A stretch of DNA of 60,265 nucleotides from NCBI RefSeq assembly GCF_927797785.1, contig NZ_CAKMLL010000070.1, positions 1 through 60,265 on the forward strand. The letters are read 5' to 3'. Source of the DNA: Candidatus Nitrotoga sp. BS. Its GTDB lineage: Bacteria > Pseudomonadota > Gammaproteobacteria > Burkholderiales > Gallionellaceae. Each line of letters begins with the position of its first letter. The first letter of the stretch is position 1. Shown here in pieces: positions 10,315 through 29,263 of this stretch. The translations under genes and the position numbers were made by a program. The notes under the pieces were generated by a model. That model did no database searches. It was not told where the DNA came from and worked only from the letters and a program-made list of their open reading frames with translations.

Positions 10315-10406
10315 TTATCCCGCCAATCCCGCATAAACATTCTGCACATCGTCATCCGCATCGACCGCTTCCAGGAACGCTTCCACTTTTTCGCGCTCGG
10401 CGACAA
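10315..10406 (-). pseudogene. yebC 3'-end duplicate
   Basis: The minus strand encodes [20 protein letters not shown] followed by NVYAGLAG and a stop, which differs by only a few residues from the C-terminus of the intact yebC at 28562-29263 (about 88% DNA identity). The fragment ends abruptly next to a truncated group II intron, so a second yebC copy was probably destroyed here. Confidence 0.85.
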
Positions 10407-10431
10407 CTAGCCTGACACAGGGGGTAAAGGG

Positions 10432-16576: not shown

Positions 16577-17176
16577 TGCTTGAGTAGAAGTCTTACGGCT
16601 TGAGATGCGCGTGTCAAAAGTGAGTTTATCAGGTTAAATAGGGATAGCGCTCGTCCCTTGGGGCGATCGATTGATGGGTTTCGGTCCCCGCTTAGCATCG
16701 AATAGATTCCTGTCTGTTCCTTTAAAGTTAACGCCATTTTTTTTCAGTAGCGCATCATCAGAAATCTCCCTGTTAAACCGCCCAGATGGACCAAATGCGT
16801 CACGCTGCCATGCAAAAACGTCACGATTGCTTGAACAATCCGTAGAGTACCTTTTTCTGCGGAACTTCGTGAATTGTCCACTGATCTTAACTTGTAATTT
16901 TCTGCCCCGTTACGAGATTTTATATTCAGGCAGCATCCGCAGTTTCTATTAATAAATATTGCGCTTAACCGTATCCAAAAAAGATGTTCACAACAATATG
17001 TAAGTGCGAAAAAATGTCGATCCGGCTATTCTTGTTGGCCGTCTGCGATCACTTCGCAATCGAAAAAGCGAGTGCCGAGCATAGTTCTGGTCGAGTATTT
17101 TTTGCGCTCAGTACGACTGTGAAGCCCCTGTTGCCTGCTGAATCTACGATTCAACTTCAAAAAGGAGATAGTTATA
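16577..17176. other. Intergenic region upstream of moxR-bat operon
   Basis: A 600-base divergent gap between the dsbA-like gene and moxR. No gene or RNA was recognised. It must hold the promoter of the moxR-bat operon; AAGGAG at about 17161-17166 is the moxR ribosome site. Base composition shifts from AT-rich to GC-rich at its right end. Confidence 0.6.
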
Positions 17177-18178
17177 ATGAACAAACCTGCGGCTGATTCA
17201 ATCAGCTCAAACGGCAACGCCCTCGCTGTCTTCAAAGAACTGCGCCGCTACCTCAATACTCAGATTCTCGGCCAGCCTGGCCTGGTCGAAAGCTTGCTGG
17301 TCGCTTTGCTGGCAGAAGGCCATTTGCTTATTGAAGGTCCGCCCGGTCTGGCCAAGACGCGCGCCATCAAGGCGCTGGCACACGGCCTGGAGTGTGACTT
17401 CCAGCGTGTTCAGTTTACTCCCGACATGTTACCGGCTGATCTTACCGGATCGGACATCTACCGGCCGGAGGATGGCGGTTTCCGTTTTCAGCGCGGCCCG
17501 CTGTTTCACAATTTGATACTGGCCGACGAGATCAACCGTGCGCCTGCCAAGGTGCAATCTGCGCTGCTGGAAGCGATGGCCGAACGCCAGATCAGCGTGG
17601 GTCTGACCACCTATGCATTGCCGCGCCTCTTTCTGGTGATGGCGACCCAGAACCCGATCGAGCATGAGGGCACTTATCCGCTGCCCGAAGCCCAGCTTGA
17701 CCGCTTCATGCTGCACACGCTCATCGATTATCCGGACCGTGAAACCACTCGCTTGATTATGGACCTGGCGCGACGTGAAGCGCTGGAAGGGCGTGAGTTG
17801 ACGCCGCCGGCTCAGACCATGCCTCAGGAATTAGTATTTGCCGCGCGCGCTGAAGCGTTGAATCTCACCCTCGCTCCTTCCGTCGCCGACTATATTGCTG
17901 CGCTGGTCGATGCAACCCGGCGGCCTGAACCCTACAGCGGCAAACTGAAAGAATGGTTGCGCTGGGGCGCCAGCCCGCGCGCGGCCATCGCCATCGAGCG
18001 CGGTGCGCGCGCGCTGGCCTGGCTGGACGGACGCGACTACGTCAGCCCGGAGGATGTTCAGGCCATCGCGCCGGATGCGTTGCGCCACCGCCTGCTGCTC
18101 GACTACACCGCACAGGCGCGCGGCATTGTCGCGCAGGATTGCGTGAATGCATTGCTGCAGAAGGTGCCCGCACCATGA
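17177..18178 (+). CDS. MoxR family AAA+ ATPase
   Basis: 333 residues. Walker A GPPGLAKT at 54-61, Walker B LILADEINRAPAKVQ near 113, sensor region MATQNPIEHEGTYPLPEAQL and the C-terminal lid with SPRAAIAIERGARALAWL. MoxR ATPases act as chaperones that load metal or cofactors or assemble complexes together with VWA proteins encoded next door. It is the first gene of a seven-gene run in which each start overlaps the preceding stop as ATGA. AAGGAG stands 11 bases upstream of ATG. Confidence 0.93.
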   Translation: MNKPAADSISSNGNALAVFKELRRYLNTQILGQPGLVESLLVALLAEGHLLIEGPPGLAKTRAIKALAHGLECDFQRVQFTPDMLPADLTGSDIYRPEDGGFRFQRGPLFHNLILADEINRAPAKVQSALLEAMAERQISVGLTTYALPRLFLVMATQNPIEHEGTYPLPEAQLDRFMLHTLIDYPDRETTRLIMDLARREALEGRELTPPAQTMPQELVFAARAEALNLTLAPSVADYIAALVDATRRPEPYSGKLKEWLRWGASPRAAIAIERGARALAWLDGRDYVSPEDVQAIAPDALRHRLLLDYTAQARGIVAQDCVNALLQKVPAP

Positions 18179-19077
18179 TCCTTCCCGATCTTGCAGAGCT
18201 TTCGGCCTTGCGCGGCGCAGCTCGCGGATTAAGTTTGCGGGCGCGCCGTCCGGCAATGGCGCAGTTGCAGGGGGGGCATCGCAGCGCCCAGCGCGGGCGC
18301 GGGCTGGAATTCGAAGAGGTGCGCCTCTACGCCCCCGGCGATGATGCGCGCAATATCGACTGGCGCGTCACCGCACGGCGCGGGCGGACACATACCAAGC
18401 TGTACCGGGAAGAACGCGAGCGCCCCGTCTGGCTGGTTGCAGATCTGCATCCGGGTCTTTATTTCGGCAGCCGCCGCCAGTTTAAATCGGCCGTACTGTT
18501 GCGCACCGCAGCCATGCTTGCCTGGGCGGCGGCACTCGGCGGCGATCGTGTCGGTGCGGTGATTGCCGTCGGCAATGACGAACCCCTGATTTTTCCACCG
18601 CGTGCCCGTGAAGCGGGCGTACTGCCCATTCTGCAAGCGCTGGTGGAAGCGCAACCGCTCGCTCCCGGTCTGCCGGTAAACGGCGGCTTGCACAATGCCG
18701 TTGCGACACTGCGCCCGTTGCTGCAACCGGGCAGCATGATTCTGCTGCTGAGCGATTTTGCCGGGCTGGATTCCTCTAGCGAAGATATCCTCGCCAGTGC
18801 GACCCTGCATAGCGAGGGCCGCCTGTTATGGATTACCGATCCGCTCGAAAGCGGTGGTCTGCCGTCCGGCACTTACCGTGTCGGTTTGCCTGGCCGCCTG
18901 TGGTGGATGAATGGCGAAGATACGCACGTCCAATGGCAAAACACCTGGCGCGCGCGCGAACAGAATATGAACGATTTGGCCATGCGTCTCAATCTTCCGC
19001 TTAGCCGCGTGAATACGCACGATGCCGTAATCGACAGCATGGTCGCGTTGTTGAAGGAACCGGCATGGGCAACATGA
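18175..19077 (+). CDS. DUF58 domain protein (bat operon)
   Basis: A 300-residue protein whose central signature LEFEEVRLYAPGDDARNIDW followed by RVTARRG defines DUF58. The C-terminal half has a degenerate VWA-like fold (LIL-LSDFAGLD). It starts at the ATG inside the moxR stop (ATGA). DUF58 proteins are constant partners of MoxR ATPases and are thought to be substrates or adaptors linking them to the membrane VWA proteins. No membrane segment is evident. The larger open frame beginning at 17953 is antisense-free but overlaps moxR and is not a realistic start. Confidence 0.9.
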   Translation: MILPDLAELSALRGAARGLSLRARRPAMAQLQGGHRSAQRGRGLEFEEVRLYAPGDDARNIDWRVTARRGRTHTKLYREERERPVWLVADLHPGLYFGSRRQFKSAVLLRTAAMLAWAAALGGDRVGAVIAVGNDEPLIFPPRAREAGVLPILQALVEAQPLAPGLPVNGGLHNAVATLRPLLQPGSMILLLSDFAGLDSSSEDILASATLHSEGRLLWITDPLESGGLPSGTYRVGLPGRLWWMNGEDTHVQWQNTWRAREQNMNDLAMRLNLPLSRVNTHDAVIDSMVALLKEPAWAT

Positions 19078-19526
19078 CCCCGGATTGGATCACCCGGCTT
19101 GCACCGGCCCATGCACCGCCGCCGCCCGGCTGGTGGCCGCTCGCACCGGGCTGGTGGGGGTTGCTGATTCTGCTGGCTGTGATGGTTGCAGGTTACATTT
19201 ACTGGCAGCGCCGTCCGGCTGTTCGCCTGCGCCGCATCGCCTTGCGCGAACTGAAAAATCTGCAAGCCACCATAATCGACGACATCATTTTGGCGCGAGA
19301 GCTTGAGCTTCTGCTGCGCCGTTACGCGGTGGCGCGTTTCGGACGCGACACGGTGGCAAATTTAAGCGGAGAGCGCTGGATCGCTTTCGTCGTCAAACAC
19401 GGCGGTGCCGCATGGTCCGGAAAGAGCGGAACCAGCCTGCTGCGCGCAGCCTACGGCGGCGCAGTGAATGCAGACCGCAGCGGCTGGCTGAAAGGTGCGC
19501 ATGGTTTTATCAGGGGGCGGTCATGA
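19074..19526 (+). CDS. DUF4381 membrane protein
   Basis: 150 residues: a proline-rich N-terminus (APAHAPPPPGWWPLAPGWW), one transmembrane helix (GLLILLAVMVAGYIYW), then a basic cytoplasmic domain containing RRIALRELKNLQ and LELLLRRYAVARFGR and the typical LSGERWIAFV, as in DUF4381. The ATG at 19074 gives the ATGA overlap seen throughout this operon; an ATG three codons earlier (19065) is also possible. It sits between DUF58 and batA, its usual place. Confidence 0.88.
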   Translation: MTPDWITRLAPAHAPPPPGWWPLAPGWWGLLILLAVMVAGYIYWQRRPAVRLRRIALRELKNLQATIIDDIILARELELLLRRYAVARFGRDTVANLSGERWIAFVVKHGGAAWSGKSGTSLLRAAYGGAVNADRSGWLKGAHGFIRGRS

Positions 19527-20491
19527 TCCATATCGCCTGGCCCTGGATGATTTTATTCCTGCCGCTGCCCTGGTTGCTGCGCCGCTGGCTGCCTCCGGCA
19601 ACTGTGCAAGGCAGCGCATTGTTCCTGCCGTTCGCAGCTTTGGTGCCGATAGACAAGATACCTGCCCTGCAGGTGAATTCGCGCAAACGCAGTATGCTGT
19701 TTGCACTGGCATGGCTGTTGTTGGTCGCTGCCACCATGCGCCCGCAGTGGCTGGATGATCCGCTGCCGGTTCCGACCACCGGGCGGCGGATTTTGCTGGC
19801 AGTCGACGTATCCGGCTCGATGGCGACGCCGGACATGGCCGGCAATTATTCTCGCCTCAATGTCGTTCAAAAAGTGGCGGGCGATTTTATACAACACCGC
19901 CATGGCGACCAGGTCGGCCTGATCCTGTTCGGCACGCGGCCTTATCTGCAGGCACCCCTGACAGCCGACCTAGACACGGTCAGCCAGTTTTTGCGCGAGT
20001 CGGTAGTCGGCGAGGCAGGGACCCAGACAGCGATAGGCGACGCCATCGGGCTCGCGCTCAAGCGTCTGCAAAGCAATCAAGCAGACCCGGGCAAACAGGG
20101 GGAAATGGTGTTGATCCTGCTCACCGACGGCGGCAACAATGCCGGGCTGATGGGTCCGCTGGCGGCTGCCAAAATTGCTGTAAGCACCGGCCTGCGCATC
20201 TATACCATCGGCGTGGGTGCCGAGGTCGAGCAAAGCATATTATTCGGTACACGCGGCAACACCGACCTCGACGAGGACACTCTCAAGTCCATCGCGCGCA
20301 TCAGCAACGGTGAATATTTCCGTGCCACTGACGCAGACGCACTGCAAGAGGTTTACGCACGCATCGACAAACTCGAACCGAGCGCCGGACGCGAACAATG
20401 GTACCGACCGCACAGCGAATGGTTTATCTGGCCGCTGGCGCTGGCACTATTGCTCAGTATACCCGCCGTGATGATCAGGAAACGGGTATGA
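19523..20491 (+). CDS. batA: BatA-type VWA domain membrane protein
   Basis: 322 residues. Two N-terminal membrane segments (WPWMILFLPLPWLL and MLFALAWLLLVAA) precede a von Willebrand A domain with an intact MIDAS: DVSGS near 95, then AIGDAIGLA and LLTDGGNNAG. A C-terminal membrane helix (WFIWPLALALLLSIPAVMI) ends the protein. AGGGGG before the ATG supports the start, which overlaps the previous stop. Bat (Bacteroides aerotolerance) proteins are thought to form an inner-membrane complex with MoxR; the precise role is unsettled. Confidence 0.92.
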   Translation: MIHIAWPWMILFLPLPWLLRRWLPPATVQGSALFLPFAALVPIDKIPALQVNSRKRSMLFALAWLLLVAATMRPQWLDDPLPVPTTGRRILLAVDVSGSMATPDMAGNYSRLNVVQKVAGDFIQHRHGDQVGLILFGTRPYLQAPLTADLDTVSQFLRESVVGEAGTQTAIGDAIGLALKRLQSNQADPGKQGEMVLILLTDGGNNAGLMGPLAAAKIAVSTGLRIYTIGVGAEVEQSILFGTRGNTDLDEDTLKSIARISNGEYFRATDADALQEVYARIDKLEPSAGREQWYRPHSEWFIWPLALALLLSIPAVMIRKRV

Positions 20492-21492
20492 ACATCAGTA
20501 CCTACATACATGCTTTCCATTTCTTGCGTCCGCTCTGGCTGATCGCTTTGCCTCTGCTGTGGATGCTGGTGTTCTGGTTGGCGCGGCGGCACAAAGGTGA
20601 CGGCGACTGGTCCGGCTTCATCGACGCCGATCTGCTGCCGGAGCTGCGCATGGACGCTGCCAGTGCTACCAGCATGCGCCCCTGGCCGTGGCTGGCGCTG
20701 CTGTGGAGCCTTGCCGCGCTGGCTCTGGCCGGCCCCAGCTGGGAGCGTAACCAGACCGCAGCCTTTCGTGCTCCGGCTGACTTGGTTTTTGTGCTCGATC
20801 TTTCACCCTCTATGATGGCGGCAGATGTTGCGCCGGATCGTGTCACGCGCGCACGGTACGCGCTGGACGACCTGCTGGCTGCGGCTCGTGACTCTCGTGC
20901 AGGGCTGGTCGTATTCTGCGAAGAGCCTTATACCGTAACACCGCTGACGCAGGACGTTGCCACTATACAGGCGCTGCTGCCTCCGCTCGTACCCGGCATC
21001 ATGCCCAGTGCAGGCGATCATCTCGCACCCGCACTCAATCGTGCGGAAAAACTGCTGCAAGCGGGTGGCATGAAAGATCAACGCATCGTGTTGCTGACAG
21101 ACGGCTTCGATGACCCTGCCGCCGCGCTTTCGGCTGCCGCAGCGCTCAAGGCGCGCGGTGTGACGCTGAGCGTGGTGGGTATAGGCACGCCGGGCGGCGC
21201 CCCGTTGCAAAACGCGGAAGGGCATTTCGCGAAGGACGCACAGGGCAGGTCTCAACTGGCCCGTCTCGACATCGATCAACTTCAGCAGTTAGCCAAAGCC
21301 GGGGGAGGCAGCTACGTCGATCTTGCACAATTGGCCAACCTGGTCACTTACCTGCAAGCGGCGCAGCATTCGACCGGCAGCGCAATTGCGGCACAGGGTA
21401 TTGAAGTTTCGCATTGGCGCGACGAGGGTGTGTGGCTGTTGCCCGTACTGTTGCTGCTGGCGAGCCTGCTGGCGCGGAGGAGCTGGCTATGA
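20488..21492 (+). CDS. batB: BatB-type VWA domain membrane protein
   Basis: 334 residues with the same plan as BatA: N-terminal membrane segments (RPLWLIALPLLWMLVFWLAR and WPWLALLWSLAALALA), a VWA domain with MIDAS residues DLSPS, SAGDHLAPALN and LLTDGFDD, and a C-terminal membrane helix (VWLLPVLLLLASLLA). The Gly of the DxSxS core is Pro here, which does not remove a metal ligand. The start overlaps the batA stop. BatA and BatB are the paired VWA subunits in Bat systems. Confidence 0.9.
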   Translation: MNISTYIHAFHFLRPLWLIALPLLWMLVFWLARRHKGDGDWSGFIDADLLPELRMDAASATSMRPWPWLALLWSLAALALAGPSWERNQTAAFRAPADLVFVLDLSPSMMAADVAPDRVTRARYALDDLLAAARDSRAGLVVFCEEPYTVTPLTQDVATIQALLPPLVPGIMPSAGDHLAPALNRAEKLLQAGGMKDQRIVLLTDGFDDPAAALSAAAALKARGVTLSVVGIGTPGGAPLQNAEGHFAKDAQGRSQLARLDIDQLQQLAKAGGGSYVDLAQLANLVTYLQAAQHSTGSAIAAQGIEVSHWRDEGVWLLPVLLLLASLLARRSWL

Positions 21493-22493
21493 TGCGCATT
21501 GCACTCGCACTTATCCTGCTTGTATTTATGCTGCCTGTAAAGGCCAGCGAGTTCTGGTCAAAGCTGTGGCTTAACGCCGACCAGCGGGGCGAAGCGTTGT
21601 TACAGGAGGGCGACGCAAGCAACGCGGCCAAGGAGTACGCCGACCCGAGGCGCAAAGCTTACGCCAAACTGAAAGCAGGTGACTATCAAGGCGCCGCGCA
21701 TGATCTGGAAAATCTGCACGATAGCGAAGCTGATTACAACCGTGGTAATGCACTCGCGCATGCGGGTGATCTGCATCGTGCACTCGAAGCATACGATGCC
21801 GCATTGAAGAGCGATCCAGACAATCAGGATGCACGTCATAACCGCGAACTGGTGGCCAAGGCTCTGGAACAGCCGCCGCCGCAACAACAGAATGACGACG
21901 GCAAAAAATCACAAGATGGCAAAAAGGAAGGCCAGCAGGACAAGCAGGGTGAGCAGAACAGCCAGGGCAAGGATAGCCAGGGCAAGAATAGCCAGGAGGG
22001 AAAATCAAGCCAGTCCGATAATAAACCGGGTAAGGGTCAGAATTCTTCCGCACAGAACAAGCCAGAACAACCGGGCAAAGCAGGCGGAAAAACTCAGGAC
22101 GGCAAAAAACAGAACGACCAGGCTCAGCATGGAAAGCCCCAGGATGGAAAGCAGACAAAAAAAGAGGAAAGCGGCCAGCAGGCGCAATCGCCTGAAAAAA
22201 GTGCTGCGCAATCCGGACAGGCAGGCAAGCAAACCCGGGCAAAAGATGATGCCGAACGCGCCCGGCGCGATGCCGAAGCGAGCTTCGCCAGGCCTGCAGC
22301 CGATGGAAAAAATGGCGCGAAAATGGGCGATGAAGCAAACACTACCAGCGCAAAGCCAGCCACTGCTCGCAAGACCGAACAGCAGATTGCACAGGAGCAA
22401 TGGCTGCGCAGTATCCCGGACAACCCGGGCGGCCTGCTGCAACGCAAATTTATGATTCAACACCTGATGAGACAACGGGAAGCACAACAATGA
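21489..22493 (+). CDS. batC: BatC-type TPR protein with Lys/Gln-rich tail
   Basis: 334 residues. A signal peptide/anchor (IALALILLVFMLPVKA) is followed by TPR-like repeats (KLKAGDYQGAAHDLENLHDS, YNRGNALAHAGDLHRALEAY). From about residue 135 to 290 it becomes a low-complexity segment rich in K, Q, G, S and N (GEQNSQGKDSQGKNSQ type). A conserved end EQQIAQEQWLRSIPDNPGGL followed by LQRKF is characteristic of Bat TPR proteins. Overlaps batB and batD by ATGA. Confidence 0.9.
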   Translation: MMRIALALILLVFMLPVKASEFWSKLWLNADQRGEALLQEGDASNAAKEYADPRRKAYAKLKAGDYQGAAHDLENLHDSEADYNRGNALAHAGDLHRALEAYDAALKSDPDNQDARHNRELVAKALEQPPPQQQNDDGKKSQDGKKEGQQDKQGEQNSQGKDSQGKNSQEGKSSQSDNKPGKGQNSSAQNKPEQPGKAGGKTQDGKKQNDQAQHGKPQDGKQTKKEESGQQAQSPEKSAAQSGQAGKQTRAKDDAERARRDAEASFARPAADGKNGAKMGDEANTTSAKPATARKTEQQIAQEQWLRSIPDNPGGLLQRKFMIQHLMRQREAQQ

Positions 22494-24265
22494 AAAATAG
22501 GTATCTCATTCCTGCCGCCCTGATTGCCTGCTGTATCAGCCTGTCCGCATGGGCGGCAGTGACGGCGTCGGTGGAAAGGAGCCGCGTTGCATCCGGTGAA
22601 ACGGTACAGTTGCTTCTTCAACATGACGGCAGCACCGGCAAACAGCCCGATCTCGGCCCGCTCAAGCGCGATTTCGACATCCTTAGCAGCAGCAGCGGCT
22701 CCAAAGTTCAGATCATAAACGGGCATATGTCTTCCCTGTCCCAGGTCAATGTCCTGCTCGCGCCCAAACACGATGGCAAGATTCAGATACCGCCGCTGGA
22801 CTGGGACGGTCAGCAATCTGCGGCGCTCGAACTGACGGTGGGCGGAAGCGGCGGCGCAACTCGAGAAGGTGCTGAAGCGGCAAGCGATACATCGCAGCAT
22901 GTTTTCCTCACTTCAACGCTGGACCAGAAGCAACCTTATGTTCAGGCAGCTGTTGTGCTGACGGTTCGGCTCTACACGGATCAAACCCTCTATCAGGCCA
23001 GCATGGATTTACAGGCCAGCGCCAATGTGCTCGTCAAGCAACTTGGCAAGGACAGGCAGACGGATGAAGTGCGCAATGACCGCAGCTACCATGTTGTTGA
23101 ACGCAAATATCTGTTGTTTCCGCAGCGCAGCGGCAAACTCAGCCTGGACGGGCCGGTGCTCAACGCCCAAGTGCAGGATACTGGCAGCAACAACCCGATG
23201 TTCGGAAATCTGTTCAGTCAAACGCCTTTCGGCGGCATTATGGATACGACACGTCCCCTACGTCTGCATGCCAAGCCCGTCGAATTAAACGTTCTGCCGC
23301 GCCCGGACAGCGCGGATGGCGCATACTGGCTGCCCGCGCAAAAAGTGAAACTCGAAGAAACCTGGCGCCCGGATGTGACACAGATCCATGTGGGTGAACC
23401 GCTCACGCGCCATCTGCATCTCGAAGCATTGGGGCTAACCGGTGAACAATTGCCGGAGCTCAATACCATCATGTCCGTGCCCGACGGCATCAAGGCCTAT
23501 CCGGACCGATCCATTGCAGCAGACAGCCCCCAGGGCGAAACGGTGCTCGGTAGACGCGACCAGGATATCGCGCTGATAGCCATGCGTCCGGGCCACTATG
23601 AGCTGCCAGCCATACGGCTTGGCTGGTGGGACACGCAGCACAACACCCGGCACGAAGCAATGCTGCCAGCGCGCTCCCTTGATATTCTCCCTGCTCTCGC
23701 CGGTTCGACCGGTGCGGCGATACCACCGCCGGCAAAACAGGAAACGTTGATTCAGGCTGAGTCTGCTGCTCAGGCTAGCCCTATTGAACAGTCAATCAAG
23801 ATTCCCAATACCCATACATGGAGGTGGGTCAGCCTGGCGCTGGGCCTGCTCTGGGTGGGCACAGCTGCGGCTTGGTGGCGAGAACGCCAGCGCGTCCAGC
23901 ATGCGCAGCCAGCAAATCACGTTGCTAAAAACCAGCCGGGCAATGTTCAGGCCGCCAGCATTCATGCTGCCAGCGCCTTCAAGGCTTTTAAACGTGCCTG
24001 CAGCGACAACGATCCGCATGCTGCGCGCCAGCAACTGCTTGCGTGGGCCAGCACGGTATGGCCTGCGGACACACCATCCGGACTCAATGCGTTATCCCGC
24101 CGCCTGGATGATCCCAAACTCACCCAGGCGCTCCGGAAACTGGATCGCGCCTGCTATACGGGCAGTGCGTGGCATGGTGAAGACCTTGCGCTGTCCCTAC
24201 CCGCACCCCTTGCACAAACGACTGCTCCGAAGAACAAAAACACACTACCGGAGCTGTACCCTTAA
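22490..24265 (+). CDS. batD: BatD family protein (oxygen tolerance)
   Basis: 591 residues. Signal peptide (LIPAALIACCISLSAWAA), then tandem Ig-like periplasmic domains with SVERSRVASGETVQLLLQHD, DFDILSSSSGSKVQIING, QPYVQAAVVLTVRLYTDQTL and YHVVERKYLLFPQRSGKL, one membrane helix near 480 (WVSLALGLLWVGTAAAWW) and a cytoplasmic tail. This is the BatD (formerly DUF) layout. It is the last gene of the ATGA-coupled operon; 24266-24388 has no further gene. Confidence 0.9.
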   Translation: MKNRYLIPAALIACCISLSAWAAVTASVERSRVASGETVQLLLQHDGSTGKQPDLGPLKRDFDILSSSSGSKVQIINGHMSSLSQVNVLLAPKHDGKIQIPPLDWDGQQSAALELTVGGSGGATREGAEAASDTSQHVFLTSTLDQKQPYVQAAVVLTVRLYTDQTLYQASMDLQASANVLVKQLGKDRQTDEVRNDRSYHVVERKYLLFPQRSGKLSLDGPVLNAQVQDTGSNNPMFGNLFSQTPFGGIMDTTRPLRLHAKPVELNVLPRPDSADGAYWLPAQKVKLEETWRPDVTQIHVGEPLTRHLHLEALGLTGEQLPELNTIMSVPDGIKAYPDRSIAADSPQGETVLGRRDQDIALIAMRPGHYELPAIRLGWWDTQHNTRHEAMLPARSLDILPALAGSTGAAIPPPAKQETLIQAESAAQASPIEQSIKIPNTHTWRWVSLALGLLWVGTAAAWWRERQRVQHAQPANHVAKNQPGNVQAASIHAASAFKAFKRACSDNDPHAARQQLLAWASTVWPADTPSGLNALSRRLDDPKLTQALRKLDRACYTGSAWHGEDLALSLPAPLAQTTAPKNKNTLPELYP

Positions 24266-24388: not shown

Positions 24389-24417
24389 TTGACAGAATAG
24401 ACGACTGGTCGTATCCT
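24389..24417 (+). promoter_or_regulatory. tetR promoter with operator in the spacer (O1)
   Basis: TTGACA at 24389-24394 and TATCCT at 24412-24417 with 17-base spacing. The palindrome AGACGAC-TG-GTCGTAT (24399-24414) fills the spacer. Related sites lie at 25089-25106 and 25609-25626. Transcription would begin about five bases before the tetR ATG, so the mRNA would be almost leaderless; no ribosome site is visible. This fits negative autoregulation. Confidence 0.75.
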
Positions 24418-24428
24418 TCATATTAACT

Positions 24429-25016
24429 ATGATAAACAAGTTATCTAAACGCACAAAATTACTCGACCAAGGGGTCTATCTATTGATGAACCAGGGTTAT
24501 CATGCGACCGGTATTAATGAAATTGTAAACGCCGTACATGTGCCTAAAGGTTCGTTTTATAGCTATTTCGAGAGTAAAGAAAATTTTGCTGCTCAAGCCA
24601 TTTGCCATTATATCGAACCGTTTATCGAGCGATTAACGAGGCATCTACAACACCCACAAGTTGACTCACTCACTGCTTTAAAAAATTACTATGCAGAACT
24701 TATTGTTGAATTAGAAAATAATGAATACAAAGGCGGATGTTTATTGGGCAACCTGATGGGTGAAATTGGTGATACCAGTGAACTGTGCAATCAGGCGCTA
24801 AAGTCTGCTGTTGAACGTTACAAATTGCTGCAATATAAGGCTTTACTGCAAGCACAAAAAGAGGGCACGGTGCGTACTGATAGGGATGCCGAATTTATGG
24901 CTAACTTGTTGGTAAATAATTGGCAAGGTGCGTTGTTACGGATGAAAGTTGAACAGTCCGTGCAACCTTTGCAAGAGTTTTGCGATACGTTACTGAATGA
25001 TTATTTTGTTGCTTAG
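24429..25016 (+). CDS. TetR/AcrR family transcriptional repressor
   Basis: 195 residues with an N-terminal TetR helix-turn-helix: GVYLLMNQGYHATGINEIVN followed by VPKGSFYSYFESKENFA. The C-terminal ligand-binding half contains GGCLLGNLMGEIGDTSE, like TetR proteins that respond to electrophiles (the AcuR/NemR side of the family); one Cys precedes LLGNL. Codon use is AT-rich, unlike the GC-rich bat operon upstream. Its own promoter carries an operator-like palindrome, and similar palindromes precede the rhodanese and DUF4242 genes. I infer it represses the whole cassette. Confidence 0.88.
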   Translation: MINKLSKRTKLLDQGVYLLMNQGYHATGINEIVNAVHVPKGSFYSYFESKENFAAQAICHYIEPFIERLTRHLQHPQVDSLTALKNYYAELIVELENNEYKGGCLLGNLMGEIGDTSELCNQALKSAVERYKLLQYKALLQAQKEGTVRTDRDAEFMANLLVNNWQGALLRMKVEQSVQPLQEFCDTLLNDYFVA

Positions 25017-25088
25017 TTGATCATAGATTAGGAACAAGGCAAGACGAGATATCTGCTAGTTGTTTGGGTCTTTTTATGACCAATTAAA

Positions 25089-25106
25089 AGACGACCGATC
25101 ATATAT
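25089..25106 (+). promoter_or_regulatory. TetR operator-like site O2
   Basis: AAGACGAC-CG-ATCATATA. The left half equals the left half of O1 and O3 (AAGAYGAC); the right half is degenerate. It lies about 55 bases before the first ATG of the rhodanese unit. Confidence 0.6.
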
Positions 25107-25210
25107 GAACCATGGATGGTTGATATGAGTGAAGAAAAAACTTAATGGATTTTGTTCAATAAGCAAAATCGCAAATACACGAAATAGAGGTATCAAATGT
25201 TAAATCACTA

Positions 25211-25519
25211 TTGGATGAAGGCTATGTCGTACTAGATGTGCGAGAACCTGCTGAATTTATGTTAGGTACTATTGAGGGCGCGTTAAATATTCCTCGTGGA
25301 ATACTTGAAGTGGCGGCAGACCGTCAATATACAGGTCGTCGTGAAGAGTTAATGGATCGCGATAAAAAATGGTTATTACTTTGCGCCAGTTCGGGGCGCT
25401 CTGCGATGGCTGCGGCTGTGATGCAACAAATGGGCTTTAAAAACATCAAGAATATTAATGGTGGCATTGCTGCCTGGAAAGCTGCTGGATTAGCAGTGAA
25501 AGTTCCACCACAGACATAA
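25211..25519 (+). CDS. Rhodanese-like sulfurtransferase (5' end disrupted)
   Basis: A single rhodanese domain: YVVLDVREPAEFMLGTIEGA, INIPRGIL-type block, active-site loop CASSGRSA with the catalytic Cys near residue 58 of the longer frame, and GGIAAWKAAG. Rhodaneses move sulfane sulfur to thiols or cyanide. The coding sequence really begins at ATG 25145 (MDFVQ), but an in-frame TAA at 25160 interrupts it; downstream the same frame reads AKSQIHEIEVSNVKSLLDEG, clearly part of the protein. Translation could restart at TTG 25211. An ATG at 25197 with AGAGG before it is out of frame. Preceding this, MSEEKT then stop (25125-25145) resembles the start of the DUF1641 gene. Confidence 0.65.
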   Translation: MDEGYVVLDVREPAEFMLGTIEGALNIPRGILEVAADRQYTGRREELMDRDKKWLLLCASSGRSAMAAAVMQQMGFKNIKNINGGIAAWKAAGLAVKVPPQT

Positions 25520-25608
25520 GTGTTACTTTTAAAAGCTGTGTAACTAAAAAAGTTTTAATCGATGTGGCCACAATGGCCTATATCGTTTTTTTTTTTACAA
25601 CTCATCAA

Positions 25609-25626
25609 AAGATGACTGGTCATCTT
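25609..25626 (+). promoter_or_regulatory. TetR operator-like site O3 (perfect palindrome)
   Basis: AAGATGAC-TG-GTCATCTT: eight-base perfect arms with a two-base centre, 18 bases before the GTG start of the DUF4242 gene. It is the best of three related sites in the cassette and probably the primary operator for the downstream genes. Confidence 0.75.
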
Positions 25627-25643
25627 ATTGCATAGGAGGCAAT

Positions 25644-25928
25644 GTGCCTAAATATATTATTGAACGAGGAATCCCTAACGCAGGCCAATTAACCGCAGCA
25701 GAATTGCAACAAATATCACAAAAATCCTGCTGTATTTTGAACGATATGGGACCGCAAATTCAGTGGGTAGAAAGTTATGTAACGGACGACAAAATCTATT
25801 GCATTTACATTGCACCCGATAAACAAAGCATTAAAACACATGCAGAACGTGGTGAATTTCCGGCAAATTCTATTGCCGAAGTAAAAGCCATAATCAATCC
25901 AACAACAGCAGAACATAGGGGAGGTTAA
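25644..25928 (+). CDS. DUF4242 domain protein
   Basis: A 94-residue small ferredoxin-fold-like protein: PKYIIERGIPNAGQLTAAEL, VESYVTDDKIYCIYIAPDK and HAERGEFPANSIAEVKAII, the DUF4242 pattern (nickel-responsive or metal-associated in some annotations; function unproven). The start is GTG with an excellent AGGAGG five bases upstream. It follows O3 and precedes the SQR-like gene by 70 bases, so they are probably co-transcribed. Confidence 0.85.
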   Translation: MPKYIIERGIPNAGQLTAAELQQISQKSCCILNDMGPQIQWVESYVTDDKIYCIYIAPDKQSIKTHAERGEFPANSIAEVKAIINPTTAEHRGG

Positions 25929-25997
25929 GCACCATGAAAATACAATAGGGTAAACAATGATTCTTCCATTAATTAATAACCTATTTAAGGAGTCATT

Positions 25998-27197
25998 ATG
26001 ACTAGCGCAACAAAACGTATTATTGTTGTTGGCGGTGGGATTGGCGGCACGATGACCGCTAACAACTTAGTCGCTAAGCTTTATCCTGAAATTTTAAATG
26101 GTGAAATTGAGATTATGATGCTCTCAAATTCCCCCAACCATATTTACAAGCCAGCCAATATGTATGTGGCTTTTAATACTTATCATCCTCATGAATTAGT
26201 CCGCAAACAACGTTCATTATTACGCCCTGAAATTATTTTTCATGTAGATGGTGTTGAAGGCTTTGAATTTGAGAAAAATCGCGTCCTCTGTGAAAGTGGC
26301 AAGCGATACGAATATGAGTATCTTGTTATTTCAACAGGCTGTGTGCCCGCGCCAGAACGCATTGAAGGCTTGAAGGAGGCAGGTGATCATTTTTATCAGA
26401 CTAAAGCGGCGCAACAACTCGCTCAAAAATTACGAACCATTGAAGAGGGTCGTATATTTATAACAGTCAATTTCCCCAAAACCCCTAACGTACCTCATCA
26501 ATGTGGTATTGCCCCTATCGAAACCACGTTAATGCTTGATGAATATTTACGTAACCGGGGTGTGCGAGACCGTATAGAGATTATTTATAGCTATCCTACC
26601 GTCTCTCAATTATTGCGTAATTGTTTATTTTTACAAAAACCAACGTGTGATGTGTTGCCTACCATTTTTGATAGTAAAGACATTAAATATCAACGTGGTT
26701 TTACTTTAGATAAGGTTGATCCCGAAGCAAAAATAGCTTATTCGGAAGAAGGCAACTCTCAAGAATTTGATATTTTAATGGCCACTCCCCCTATCCGCGC
26801 GGTAGATGCCGTAATTAATTCAGGAAAATCAGAAGCACAAAATAATGAAGGCTGGTTACCCACTGACTTTGAAACCTTGAAAATGTACGGTACTGATAAT
26901 GTCTATGTGATGGGAGATACCGTTGATTTACCAGTAAGTAAAGCAGGAGGCAGCTGTCATAACCAGTCACCTGTCGTCGTGGAAAATATCGCTTCGGAAA
27001 TTCGTCGCGGTTATACCTCTGCCATTTATGATGGAAAAGTTCAAGCAATCGCTCAAATGGGATTGGAAGCCGGCATGCCACTCTGGTATGACTATAAGAG
27101 TGATGTCCAGGTCGCACCACCTACCAAGCTCGGGGGATTAATGCGTAAAACGTTTAATCGCGGTATTTATTGGGCTGTTGCGCGCGGGATAGTTTGA
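25998..27197 (+). CDS. SQR-like FAD/NAD(P)-dependent oxidoreductase
   Basis: 399 residues with the FAD-binding Rossmann motif VVGGGIGGTMTANNL at 10-24, the second dinucleotide block YEYLVISTGCVPAPE and the C-terminal FAD motif DNVYVMGDTVDLPVSKAGG. It resembles sulfide:quinone oxidoreductases and relatives. Cysteines occur at ISTGC (about 115), PHQCG (about 168), RNC and PTC (about 210-217) and GGSCHN (about 316); three cysteines at comparable places are catalytic in SQR. A C-terminal amphipathic segment (LMRKTFNRGIYWAVARG) may dock to the membrane. AAGGAG precedes the ATG. Neighbouring rhodanese and DUF1641 fit sulfur metabolism. Confidence 0.85.
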   Translation: MTSATKRIIVVGGGIGGTMTANNLVAKLYPEILNGEIEIMMLSNSPNHIYKPANMYVAFNTYHPHELVRKQRSLLRPEIIFHVDGVEGFEFEKNRVLCESGKRYEYEYLVISTGCVPAPERIEGLKEAGDHFYQTKAAQQLAQKLRTIEEGRIFITVNFPKTPNVPHQCGIAPIETTLMLDEYLRNRGVRDRIEIIYSYPTVSQLLRNCLFLQKPTCDVLPTIFDSKDIKYQRGFTLDKVDPEAKIAYSEEGNSQEFDILMATPPIRAVDAVINSGKSEAQNNEGWLPTDFETLKMYGTDNVYVMGDTVDLPVSKAGGSCHNQSPVVVENIASEIRRGYTSAIYDGKVQAIAQMGLEAGMPLWYDYKSDVQVAPPTKLGGLMRKTFNRGIYWAVARGIV

Positions 27198-27213
27198 TTA
27201 AAGGGGAATGCAT

Positions 27214-27627
27214 ATGTCTGAAGAAAAGCAGTTAAATATAATTGAAAAAAAACTCATGTCGGATACGGCCCTTAATGACCCCGCAACTATCGAAGGCATT
27301 AAGAACTTAATCGAAAAAACGGCGCCATTAGTACAAGCCGGTCGGTTCAACAACATCATCGATTTATTGTCACTCATATCGGACAATATTCAATTTCTTG
27401 ATGAAGCGGCTCTGGAAAAAACCACTAAAGTCGGCGAGGAAATTTTAGCACTGGGCTGGACAACCGGTAATGCTGTTCGTATGGCGAACGCTCAAACGGC
27501 AGCATTAGAAAAACCACCCGGCTTGTTTCAATTGATGAGCTCCCTAAACGATCCCGATGTTCGTCGTTCATTACATTTTTTTATTGGTACGATGCGAATT
27601 ATTGGCCGACAGATGAAAAATGACTAA
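27214..27627 (+). CDS. DUF1641 domain protein
   Basis: 137 residues, helical, with the DUF1641 core NNIIDLLSLISDNIQFLDEA and the C-terminal PPGLFQLMSSLNDPDVRRSL followed by HFFIGTMRIIGRQM. The ATG at 27214 is preferred because AAGGGG is seven bases upstream; another ATG two codons earlier overlaps that site. It lies 16 bases after the SQR-like stop. DUF1641 proteins commonly accompany such flavoproteins and are thought to be accessory subunits, possibly membrane-linked; function is not established. Confidence 0.88.
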   Translation: MSEEKQLNIIEKKLMSDTALNDPATIEGIKNLIEKTAPLVQAGRFNNIIDLLSLISDNIQFLDEAALEKTTKVGEEILALGWTTGNAVRMANAQTAALEKPPGLFQLMSSLNDPDVRRSLHFFIGTMRIIGRQMKND

Positions 27628-28561: not shown

Positions 28562-29263
28562 TTATCCCGCCAATCCCACATAAACATTCTGCACATCGTC
28601 ATCCGCGTCTACCGCTTCCAGGAACGCTTCTACTTCTTCGCGTTCTGCATCGCTTAACGTGACCGGATTTTTCGGGCGGTAACCCAGTTGAGCGGAAGTT
28701 ACGGTGTAGCCCTGTTCTGGCAGTGCCTTGCACACGGCATCCAGGTCGGTAGTGTCGGTGATGAACAGTGTTGTGCCTTCGTCGGCGGGTTCAAAGTCCT
28801 GCGCGCCTGCTTCGATGGCAGCGACTTCGGCATCTGCATCTTTAGAATTAGGCGTTGCTTCGATCATGCCCACATGGTCGAAGTCCCACGAGACGGAACC
28901 GGCAGCTCCCAGTAGACCCTTGCGAAACAGCACGCGGATGTTGGGGTAGGTACGATTGGCGTTGTCGGTTAGACATTCGACGATCACCGGGACTTTATGC
29001 GGCGCGAAGCCCTCGTAGGTTAGCCGCTCCAGGCTTGCACCGCCGTCTAGCAGACCCGCACCTTTCTTGATCGCGCGCTCCAGTGTTTCCTTGGGCATGG
29101 ATACTTTTTTGGCCTGTTCGATCACCAGTCGCAAACGCGAGTTCAGATCCGGGTCAGCACCGCCTTTTGCTGCGACCATAATTTCCTTGGACAGCTTGCC
29201 GAAGATCTTGCCCTTGGCATTCGCTGCAACTTCTTTATGTCTGGCTTTCCATTGTGCACCCAT
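28562..29263 (-). CDS. yebC: YebC/PmpR family DNA-binding regulator (YeeN-type)
   Basis: 233 residues. The N-terminus [20 protein letters not shown] followed by [15 protein letters not shown] belongs to the YeeN-like branch of the YebC/TACO1 family. The middle contains [19 protein letters not shown] and [17 protein letters not shown], and the acidic end [16 protein letters not shown]. Family members were called transcription regulators; recent work links them to relief of ribosome stalling on proline stretches. A 3'-end duplicate sits at 10315-10406. Confidence 0.93.

Follow-up and report, generated by a model that had tools for sequence, protein, structure and literature searches.

An apparently laterally acquired cassette of probable sulfur oxidation in Candidatus Nitrotoga and its candidate NemR-type repressor

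Introduction

What does the TetR-type repressor encoded at the head of a short gene cassette in a nitrite oxidizer control, and what does it sense? The cassette lies at positions 24389–27627 of a 60-kb stretch of DNA (hereafter the window) from the 3.1-Mb genome, in 121 contigs, of a Candidatus Nitrotoga (Gallionellaceae). On the plus strand it carries, in this order, tetR, a rhodanese frame, and genes for a DUF4242 protein, a flavoprotein resembling sulfide:quinone oxidoreductase (SQR) and a DUF1641 protein. Searches with Pfam models bore out the initial annotation in that tetR (TetR_N and TetR_C_13), DUF4242 (PF14026), the SQR-like gene (Pyr_redox_2) and DUF1641 are co-oriented on one strand, and supported the sulfur theme that it had proposed. 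With moderate confidence, we favor the explanation that a NemR-type repressor, which would respond to a volatile thiol or to sulfide, controls a sulfur-oxidation module that was acquired laterally and has partly eroded; the likelihoods that we attach to this explanation and to its rivals are not mutually exclusive. Gene content, operators, conservation, neighbors, tree position and gene decay are read directly from the DNA. L-numbers denote loci and G-numbers genomes of this analysis.

Operators of the cassette

The three related palindromes pointed out in the initial annotation were recovered. Operator O1 (24398–24415) lies within the 17-bp spacer of a sigma70-type tetR promoter (TTGACA-17-TATCCT; 24389–24417, plus strand), of which the −35 element and the spacer are kept in Nitrotoga and methanotrophs and the sequence further upstream is not. 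Operator O3 (25609–25626), located 5′ of the DUF4242 gene, has perfect 8-bp arms, and O2 (25088–25105), 5′ of the rhodanese gene, is related but imperfect, with 3 of 5 inner pairs as counted by eye. A symmetrized position weight matrix (PWM), trained on 15 operators that all came from other loci, ranked these sites first in the window (24.1 for O1, 23.6 for O3 and 19.7 for O2), with the next-best place scoring 10.4. An earlier, unsymmetrized matrix gave 23.4, 21.6 and 18.0 (20.0 on the other strand) for the window sites. In 50 random windows of first order, the maximum averaged 13.0 and reached 19.1 at most, and under that matrix the site at 25609 was therefore only marginal. Motif training excluded the operators of L097 and, for L077, the one on the tetR side.

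Searched without mismatches, the IUPAC motif matched only the three window sites in the whole 3.1-Mb genome. Relaxed scans did not rise above background: one mismatch, in the genome, gave 7 matches, two unrelated places among them, versus 12 for the backwards motif, and a first scan with two mismatches gave 6 versus 4.65 expected by chance, its three no-mismatch matches being the sites themselves. A second, related motif, which O2 of the window does not fit, was searched without mismatches under 13 genome labels (12 distinct genomes, since G002 gives places identical to those of G458, Candidatus Nitrotoga sp. CP45). It yielded 28 sites, 26 of which fell in the SQR cassette, including one cassette divided between two contigs, and the backwards control gave 0 to 2 matches per strand per genome. 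The 2 remaining sites adjoin a second, paralogous tetR-DUF4242 pair that is followed by SBP56/mtoX.

Conservation of the palindromes in related cassettes, a check proposed with the initial annotation, was found at tetR in 9/9 and before DUF4242 in 13/13 aligned relatives (CP45 and G002 among the latter being seemingly one genome), which supports the autoregulated local regulon suggested there. When 13 cassettes were scored, O1 reached at least 17 in all 10 that could be scored, three loci being cut at their ends, and O3 did so in 13/13. The behavior of O2 was different. It scored 21.6–25.6 in five methanotroph-type cassettes, one of them from a gammaproteobacterial metagenome-assembled genome (MAG), and retained 19.7 in the window despite the broken rhodanese gene. 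In two Nitrotoga whose rhodanese gene is intact it was weakened (11.9 and 8.8), and in four Nitrotoga without that gene it fell to 2.4 or less, with O1 at 24.5–25.6 and O3 at 22.0–24.3. Because O2 decayed along with rhodanese loss in these four while O1 and O3 were kept, the operators appear to be functional units, and the pattern constitutes evidence obtained without an experiment.

The repressor

The tetR gene (24429–25016, plus strand) encodes a repressor with the domains of the NemR type (TetR_N, E 5.4e-11; TetR_C_13, E 2.3e-18). The Cys106/Lys175 pair has a redox role in NemR. In an alignment of 60 rows, from which the 100-residue fragment L012 was left out, the equivalent of Cys106, C104, was present in 60/60 rows and that of Lys175, K173, in 59/60. 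A further cysteine, C120, which NemR does not have, was found in 59/60. The NemR-type cysteine is also cited in the available text of PMC13178969.

In a tree of the same 60 rows, the 12 cassette TetRs together with L136 form a 13-row clade (100/99). This is nested in a clade of 22 rows (97/88), of which the remaining nine lack an adjoining SQR gene; the twelve SQR-linked rows by themselves are weakly supported (44/70). The tree was rooted at the midpoint only, and its bootstrap had not settled. The protein is best read as a cysteine-switch, NemR-type repressor of volatile-thiol or sulfide oxidation modules.

The same switch in methanotrophs

The repressor was matched (E ≤1e-60) in 110 of the 151 genomes in the order of Methylomicrobium sp. 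wino1 (Methylococcales), wino1 included, in 5/398 genomes of a phylum sample that contains its own genome (E ≤1e-50), and in 1/121 genomes of the order of G245. The second tetR-DUF4242 pair is followed, in Methylobacter luteus and Methylomonas lenta, by a gene of the methanethiol oxidase family, SBP56, and by a fused SCO1/MauG gene. This order matches the arrangement described for mtoX in the available text of PMC5739008.

For a survey of neighbors, 40 of 121 Methylococcales TetR places, spread down the ranking, were fetched. In 29 of these, mtoX, called by tblastn identity of at least 72% to the M. luteus protein and not by Pfam, lies downstream on the same strand within 2.2 kb, and in 10 a YncE-like propeller does so within 3.3 kb. 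The single place with neither (L138) is at a contig edge with no neighbor visible, and was scored as a miss. DUF4242 occurs downstream on the same strand in 31 places and ferredoxin in 11. An operator (PWM ≥13, within 200 bp) precedes tetR in 38/40, L151 and L165 being the exceptions, and a downstream operator was present in 20/40. Three genomes (G454, G455 and G457) have the SQR cassette plus a separate tetR-DUF4242-mtoX-SCO1/mauG locus, where operators are visible in the sequence but fall outside the strict pattern; G245, of the same phylum but another class, has tetR-mtoX-SCO1-mauG with two operators. The neighborhood of the relatives, mostly mtoX, suggests what the switch senses. In one study (PMC10936201), sulfane sulfur is reported as the direct product of methanethiol oxidase, and it could therefore be the common signal.

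The YncE-like beta-propeller (L023, 8711–9958; L136, 2756–3925; L029, 3–488) gave a weak Pfam YNCE match under the cut-off and has a signal-peptide-like start. In the 10 places it never stands beside a full mtoX, and the L135 propeller has a 28% local match to mtoX; possibly the propeller is another thiol oxidase. At L136 (4346–4988) the rhodanese, propeller, DUF4242, ferredoxin and DUF1641 genes were seen but no SQR gene, and DUF1641 seems to start in odd sequence; the absence of SQR there would be a recent loss or an assembly fault.

The SQR-like flavoprotein and its partners

The SQR-like gene (25998–27197, plus strand) encodes a protein whose predicted structure (pLDDT 88.5) has the SQR fold, with human SQR as the best Foldseek match (E 4.9e-32, TM 0.83). 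The sole NCBIfam SQR model matched was type III (NF049943, selenoprotein subtype), at 248.8 bits and under the curated cut-off of 525. The first and second catalytic cysteines of SQR are C201 and C379 in the human enzyme. The first, universal one is C169, present in 20/20 rows. The residue at the place of the canonical second (YDG+4) is Ala in 15/15 subfamily rows (≥58% identity) and Cys in two relatives of 38–39% identity (L015, L016). Among the other cysteines of the subfamily, C115 is found in 15/15 rows and C209, C217 and C320 in 13/15. Homologs from Campylobacterota (L037, L038) have no C320, and have a cysteine in MGLxCGMPLW instead.

These alignments suggest that the second cysteine of this SQR subfamily may have moved. 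A bolder proposal, which we consider unlikely, is that the SQR-like/DUF1641 pair oxidizes methanethiol or its persulfide as a thiol:quinone oxidoreductase, the second redox cysteine having shifted from the canonical C-terminal position to the GGSCH loop (C320). If this were true, the sensor that governs MtoX would here govern a respiratory substitute for it, one handed on to nitrite oxidizers. The subfamily is rare (1/397 other genomes of the phylum sample at E ≤1e-90), and the gene shows dN/dS values of 0.03–0.11 overall and 0.07–0.11 within Nitrotoga.

The DUF1641 gene (27208–27627, plus strand) adjoins the SQR-like gene in distant lineages as well; the predicted structure of its product was poor (pLDDT 56). 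The DUF4242 protein (25644–25928, plus strand, GTG start) belongs to PF14026, now named SCO4226-like (E 9.7e-28; 96.6 bits against a cut-off of 28.5), and a phmmer search with it against solved structures gave no match at E 0.001. For SCO4226, the available text of PMC4186839 gives Asp43, Ser46 and His76 as Ni-1 ligands. As for the genus, sqr is reported to be common among Nitrotoga and the iron oxidizers related to it in a pangenome study (PMC10734462), and the paper on Ca. Nitrotoga fabula names a sulfite oxidoreductase, the term "quinone oxidoreductase" being absent from its main text (PMC6050957).

Lateral transfer and gene decay

The SQR-like protein is 94–96% identical to that of Methylococcales (Gammaproteobacteria), which is as close as it is to those of other Nitrotoga (Betaproteobacteria; 96–97%), and comparison with four methanotroph cassettes gave synonymous distances of 0.5–0.9 and nonsynonymous distances of 0.02–0.07. 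In ten loci, five from Nitrotoga and one (L025) with almost no left flank, the cassette was accompanied neither by flank DNA of the window nor by any of 7 proteins encoded in its flanks, and the five Nitrotoga loci have almost no flank in common with each other, L020 with L027 excepted. The cassette-type SQR was present in 7/19 genomes of the genus, its own included, some of the genomes being incomplete. A control with a neighboring gene (28562–29263) gave 85–93% identity for two Nitrotoga, and values for methanotrophs and Halomonas did not exceed 41%; the comparison is weak, being confused by paralogs. Read by eye, that gene is a YebC-like paralog, with fragments at 10318–10431 (81%) and on contig C115 (78%).

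Horizontal acquisition, as proposed in the initial annotation, is well supported by the high SQR identity to Methylococcales in unrelated surroundings. The comparison of SQR-like gene neighborhoods suggested there also revealed that the SQR-DUF1641 pair recurs with other regulators. The argument from a drop in GC content was weak and was rejected as proof of transfer: other 1-kb stretches of the window are equally AT-rich, and the compositional outlier is the bat genes (17000–24265; 55–64% GC versus roughly 40–53% for the remaining window). These GC-rich genes, called bat in the initial annotation, flank the cassette on one side, and an opposite-strand DsbA-like gene flanks it on the other. 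Methanotrophs were probably the donor, given how widely the TetR is spread among them and how patchily it occurs in Nitrotoga; the direction is not proven by the tree.

The full cassette of the relatives has six genes, for TetR, rhodanese, DUF4242, ferredoxin, SQR-like flavoprotein and DUF1641. The five-gene content first described holds, but a sixth gene had been overlooked: between DUF4242 and SQR, the Fer4_19 ferredoxin gene, intact in several relatives, persists as a short remnant (~25934–25963, plus strand). The rhodanese domain (gene at 25125–25519, plus strand; recognized by Pfam in a frame starting at 25163) was likewise as described, but it had been missed that the gene is broken by a frameshift near its start and an in-frame stop shortly behind it; several relatives have intact copies. 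Downstream of it, a stem resembling an intrinsic terminator with a T run (25560–25596, plus strand) was seen by eye in the aligned relatives except a Thiomargarita MAG. The dN/dS of the rhodanese gene (0.24–0.27 against two Nitrotoga) was not clearly above that of DUF4242 (0.18–0.24), and relaxed selection on the broken gene was not evident from this comparison.

Discussion

We propose that, without inducer, a TetR dimer would occupy O1, O2 and O3 and silence tetR along with the units of rhodanese and of DUF4242-SQR-DUF1641. Methanethiol, sulfide or a volatile thiol related to methanethiol would give rise to a reactive sulfur species that modifies Cys104, perhaps with Cys120, and the modified TetR would let go of the DNA. 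The SQR-like flavoprotein, presumably associated with the membrane and partnered by DUF1641, would then oxidize the sulfur compound and deliver the electrons to quinone. A repressor-operator pair of this kind stands mostly ahead of mtoX in Methylococcales. Nitrotoga would have adopted the SQR-type version, probably from methanotrophs, with the accessory rhodanese and ferredoxin now being lost. The best reading for Nitrotoga is that the repressor controls an atypical SQR-like flavoprotein with DUF1641, and the distribution suggests that the switch spread from methane oxidizers to nitrite oxidizers.

Several observations weigh against this proposal. DNA binding, inducer and enzyme activity are all inferred, as are membrane contact and the direction of transfer. 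At the position of the canonical second cysteine the flavoprotein has Ala350, and it has no cysteine after residue 320. Of the six cassette genes, the window has two only in broken or lost form. SQR lies downstream of the TetR in only 2/40 sampled methanotroph places, and elsewhere the SQR-DUF1641 pair runs with unrelated regulators encoded upstream, a TetR that matches TetR_C_10 weakly in L032, L034 and L040 and a response regulator in L037 and L038; in Halomonas L030, the pair is accompanied by neither tetR nor DUF4242. C120 is not a sulfur-specific mark, as it is also found in distant TetRs beside genes resembling those of Old Yellow Enzymes (OYE), and such genes behind the same operator allow an electrophile inducer. 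Neither SBP56/mtoX nor the YncE-like propeller was found in Nitrotoga (0/7 genomes each). Because of this absence, the link to methanethiol rests on kinship of the switch, and in Nitrotoga sulfide or sulfane sulfur, instead of methanethiol, may act as the inducer.

The last point leads to plain sulfide detoxification, in which the TetR would sense sulfide or polysulfide, the SQR-like protein would be a type III SQR as in Methylacidiphilum, and methanethiol would not be involved. We regard this as quite possible, though on balance we doubt it. The SQR fold, the type III model as the only one matched and the lack of mtoX in the Nitrotoga genomes all speak for it, as does the upregulation of type III SQR by H2S in Methylacidiphilum (available text of PMC10205796). 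It leaves unexplained, however, why the switch is associated with mtoX in most sampled methanotroph places, and the canonical second cysteine is absent.

Detoxification of electrophiles (quinone, hypochlorite or aldehyde) under a NemR-type sensor, with the SQR-like protein as a general quinone or disulfide reductase, appears rather unlikely. The NemR Cys106/Lys175 pair is kept, the E. coli nemR palindrome and nemA half site are related to the operator in spite of low scores (5.2 and 8.6), and distant TetRs with the same operator (L093, L094) precede genes that, from translations read by eye, resemble OYE; on the latter ground it remains plausible that the switch originated as a sensor of electrophiles. 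The undescribed electrophile detoxification entertained in the initial annotation is nevertheless less likely than oxidation of a volatile thiol or sulfide, because close relatives of the TetR with the same operator have mtoX (29/40) downstream; in 10/40 the propeller takes that position, and the cassette proteins themselves are of sulfur type.

It is quite unlikely that the cassette is a mobile passenger in decay and now serves little function in Nitrotoga. Rhodanese and ferredoxin are broken or lost in several Nitrotoga, and the patchy occurrence in unrelated surroundings would suit a passenger. Against this, the SQR frame is open in 7/7 genus genomes that have SQR, the gene has low dN/dS within Nitrotoga, tetR, DUF4242 and DUF1641 are at or near full length in loci of sufficient length, and O3 is intact, as is O1 where present in the sequence. 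Regulation of the acrylate/dimethylsulfoniopropionate (DMSP) type as in AcuR is highly improbable and was rejected: although AcuR (NF051457) is the best NCBIfam model for the TetR, its 146.7 bits are under the curated cut-off of 247, and no acrylate/DMSP family occurs among the cassette proteins or the searched DsbA-like and AAA_33 neighbors.

The oxidation module under a thiol- or sulfide-responsive switch that we favor would make the TetR and its operator candidates for the control of methanethiol oxidation in methanotrophs, and the shared switch would tie DUF4242, DUF1641, the Fer4_19 ferredoxin and the YncE-like propeller to volatile-sulfur chemistry. Searches of one literature collection gave no paper with both "mtoX" and "TetR" as whole words (looser wording gave matches, only partly examined), none joining DUF4242 with rhodanese, and none joining TetR, repressor, persulfide and sulfide quinone oxidoreductase; DUF1641 and sulfide occurred together in two.

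Comparison with known systems

Adjacent genes for an SQR-like protein and DUF1641 also occur in the pKLC102 integrative element and in other lineages, where, in contrast to the cassette, they are not headed by a tetR-DUF4242 pair of this kind. By annotation, the pKLC102 genes (L043, 5962–7594) lie inside a block of conjugation genes with a DsbA family gene nearby. The type III SQR of Methylacidiphilum resembles the cassette protein in its fold and in the match to the type III model; it differs in that its operon has TusA and DsrE2 where the cassette has DUF1641 (available text of PMC10205796), and in that the cassette protein is without the canonical second cysteine.

The mtoX-SCO1-mauG operons share more of the regulatory arrangement. 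In methanotrophs, mtoX lies downstream of the close relative of the TetR that has the same operator, frequently accompanied by DUF4242 and in some cases by SCO1/mauG within the DNA retrieved. Methanethiol raises mtoX transcription in Ruegeria, where the upstream regulator gene is of the IclR family (available text of PMC5739008), and the 7 Nitrotoga genomes gave no mtoX.

Among regulators, AltR of Pantoea ananatis is likewise of the NemR type and autoregulated; several sites in a single cluster carry operator-like repeats, and one essential cysteine of AltR answers sulfur electrophiles. Its operator is CAATCTAC-N6-GTAGATTG, and its cluster consists of thiosulfinate tolerance genes (available text of PMC13178969). 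NemR of E. coli (nemRA-gloA) differs from the cassette repressor in having 29% identity to it and no Cys120, in controlling OYE and a glyoxalase rather than sulfur oxidation, and in the low matrix scores of its palindrome (TAGACC-N4-GGTCTA) and of the nemA half site. The two nonetheless have in common the TetR_C_13-type architecture and the equivalents of Cys106 and Lys175. In E. coli, nemR is preceded by TAGACCGACTGGTCTA and nemA by AGACGACCGG (immediately 5′ of the gene, L099, 2142–2151, in K-12), both related to the cassette operator, and the palindrome 5′ of nemR shares CGACTGGTC with O1.

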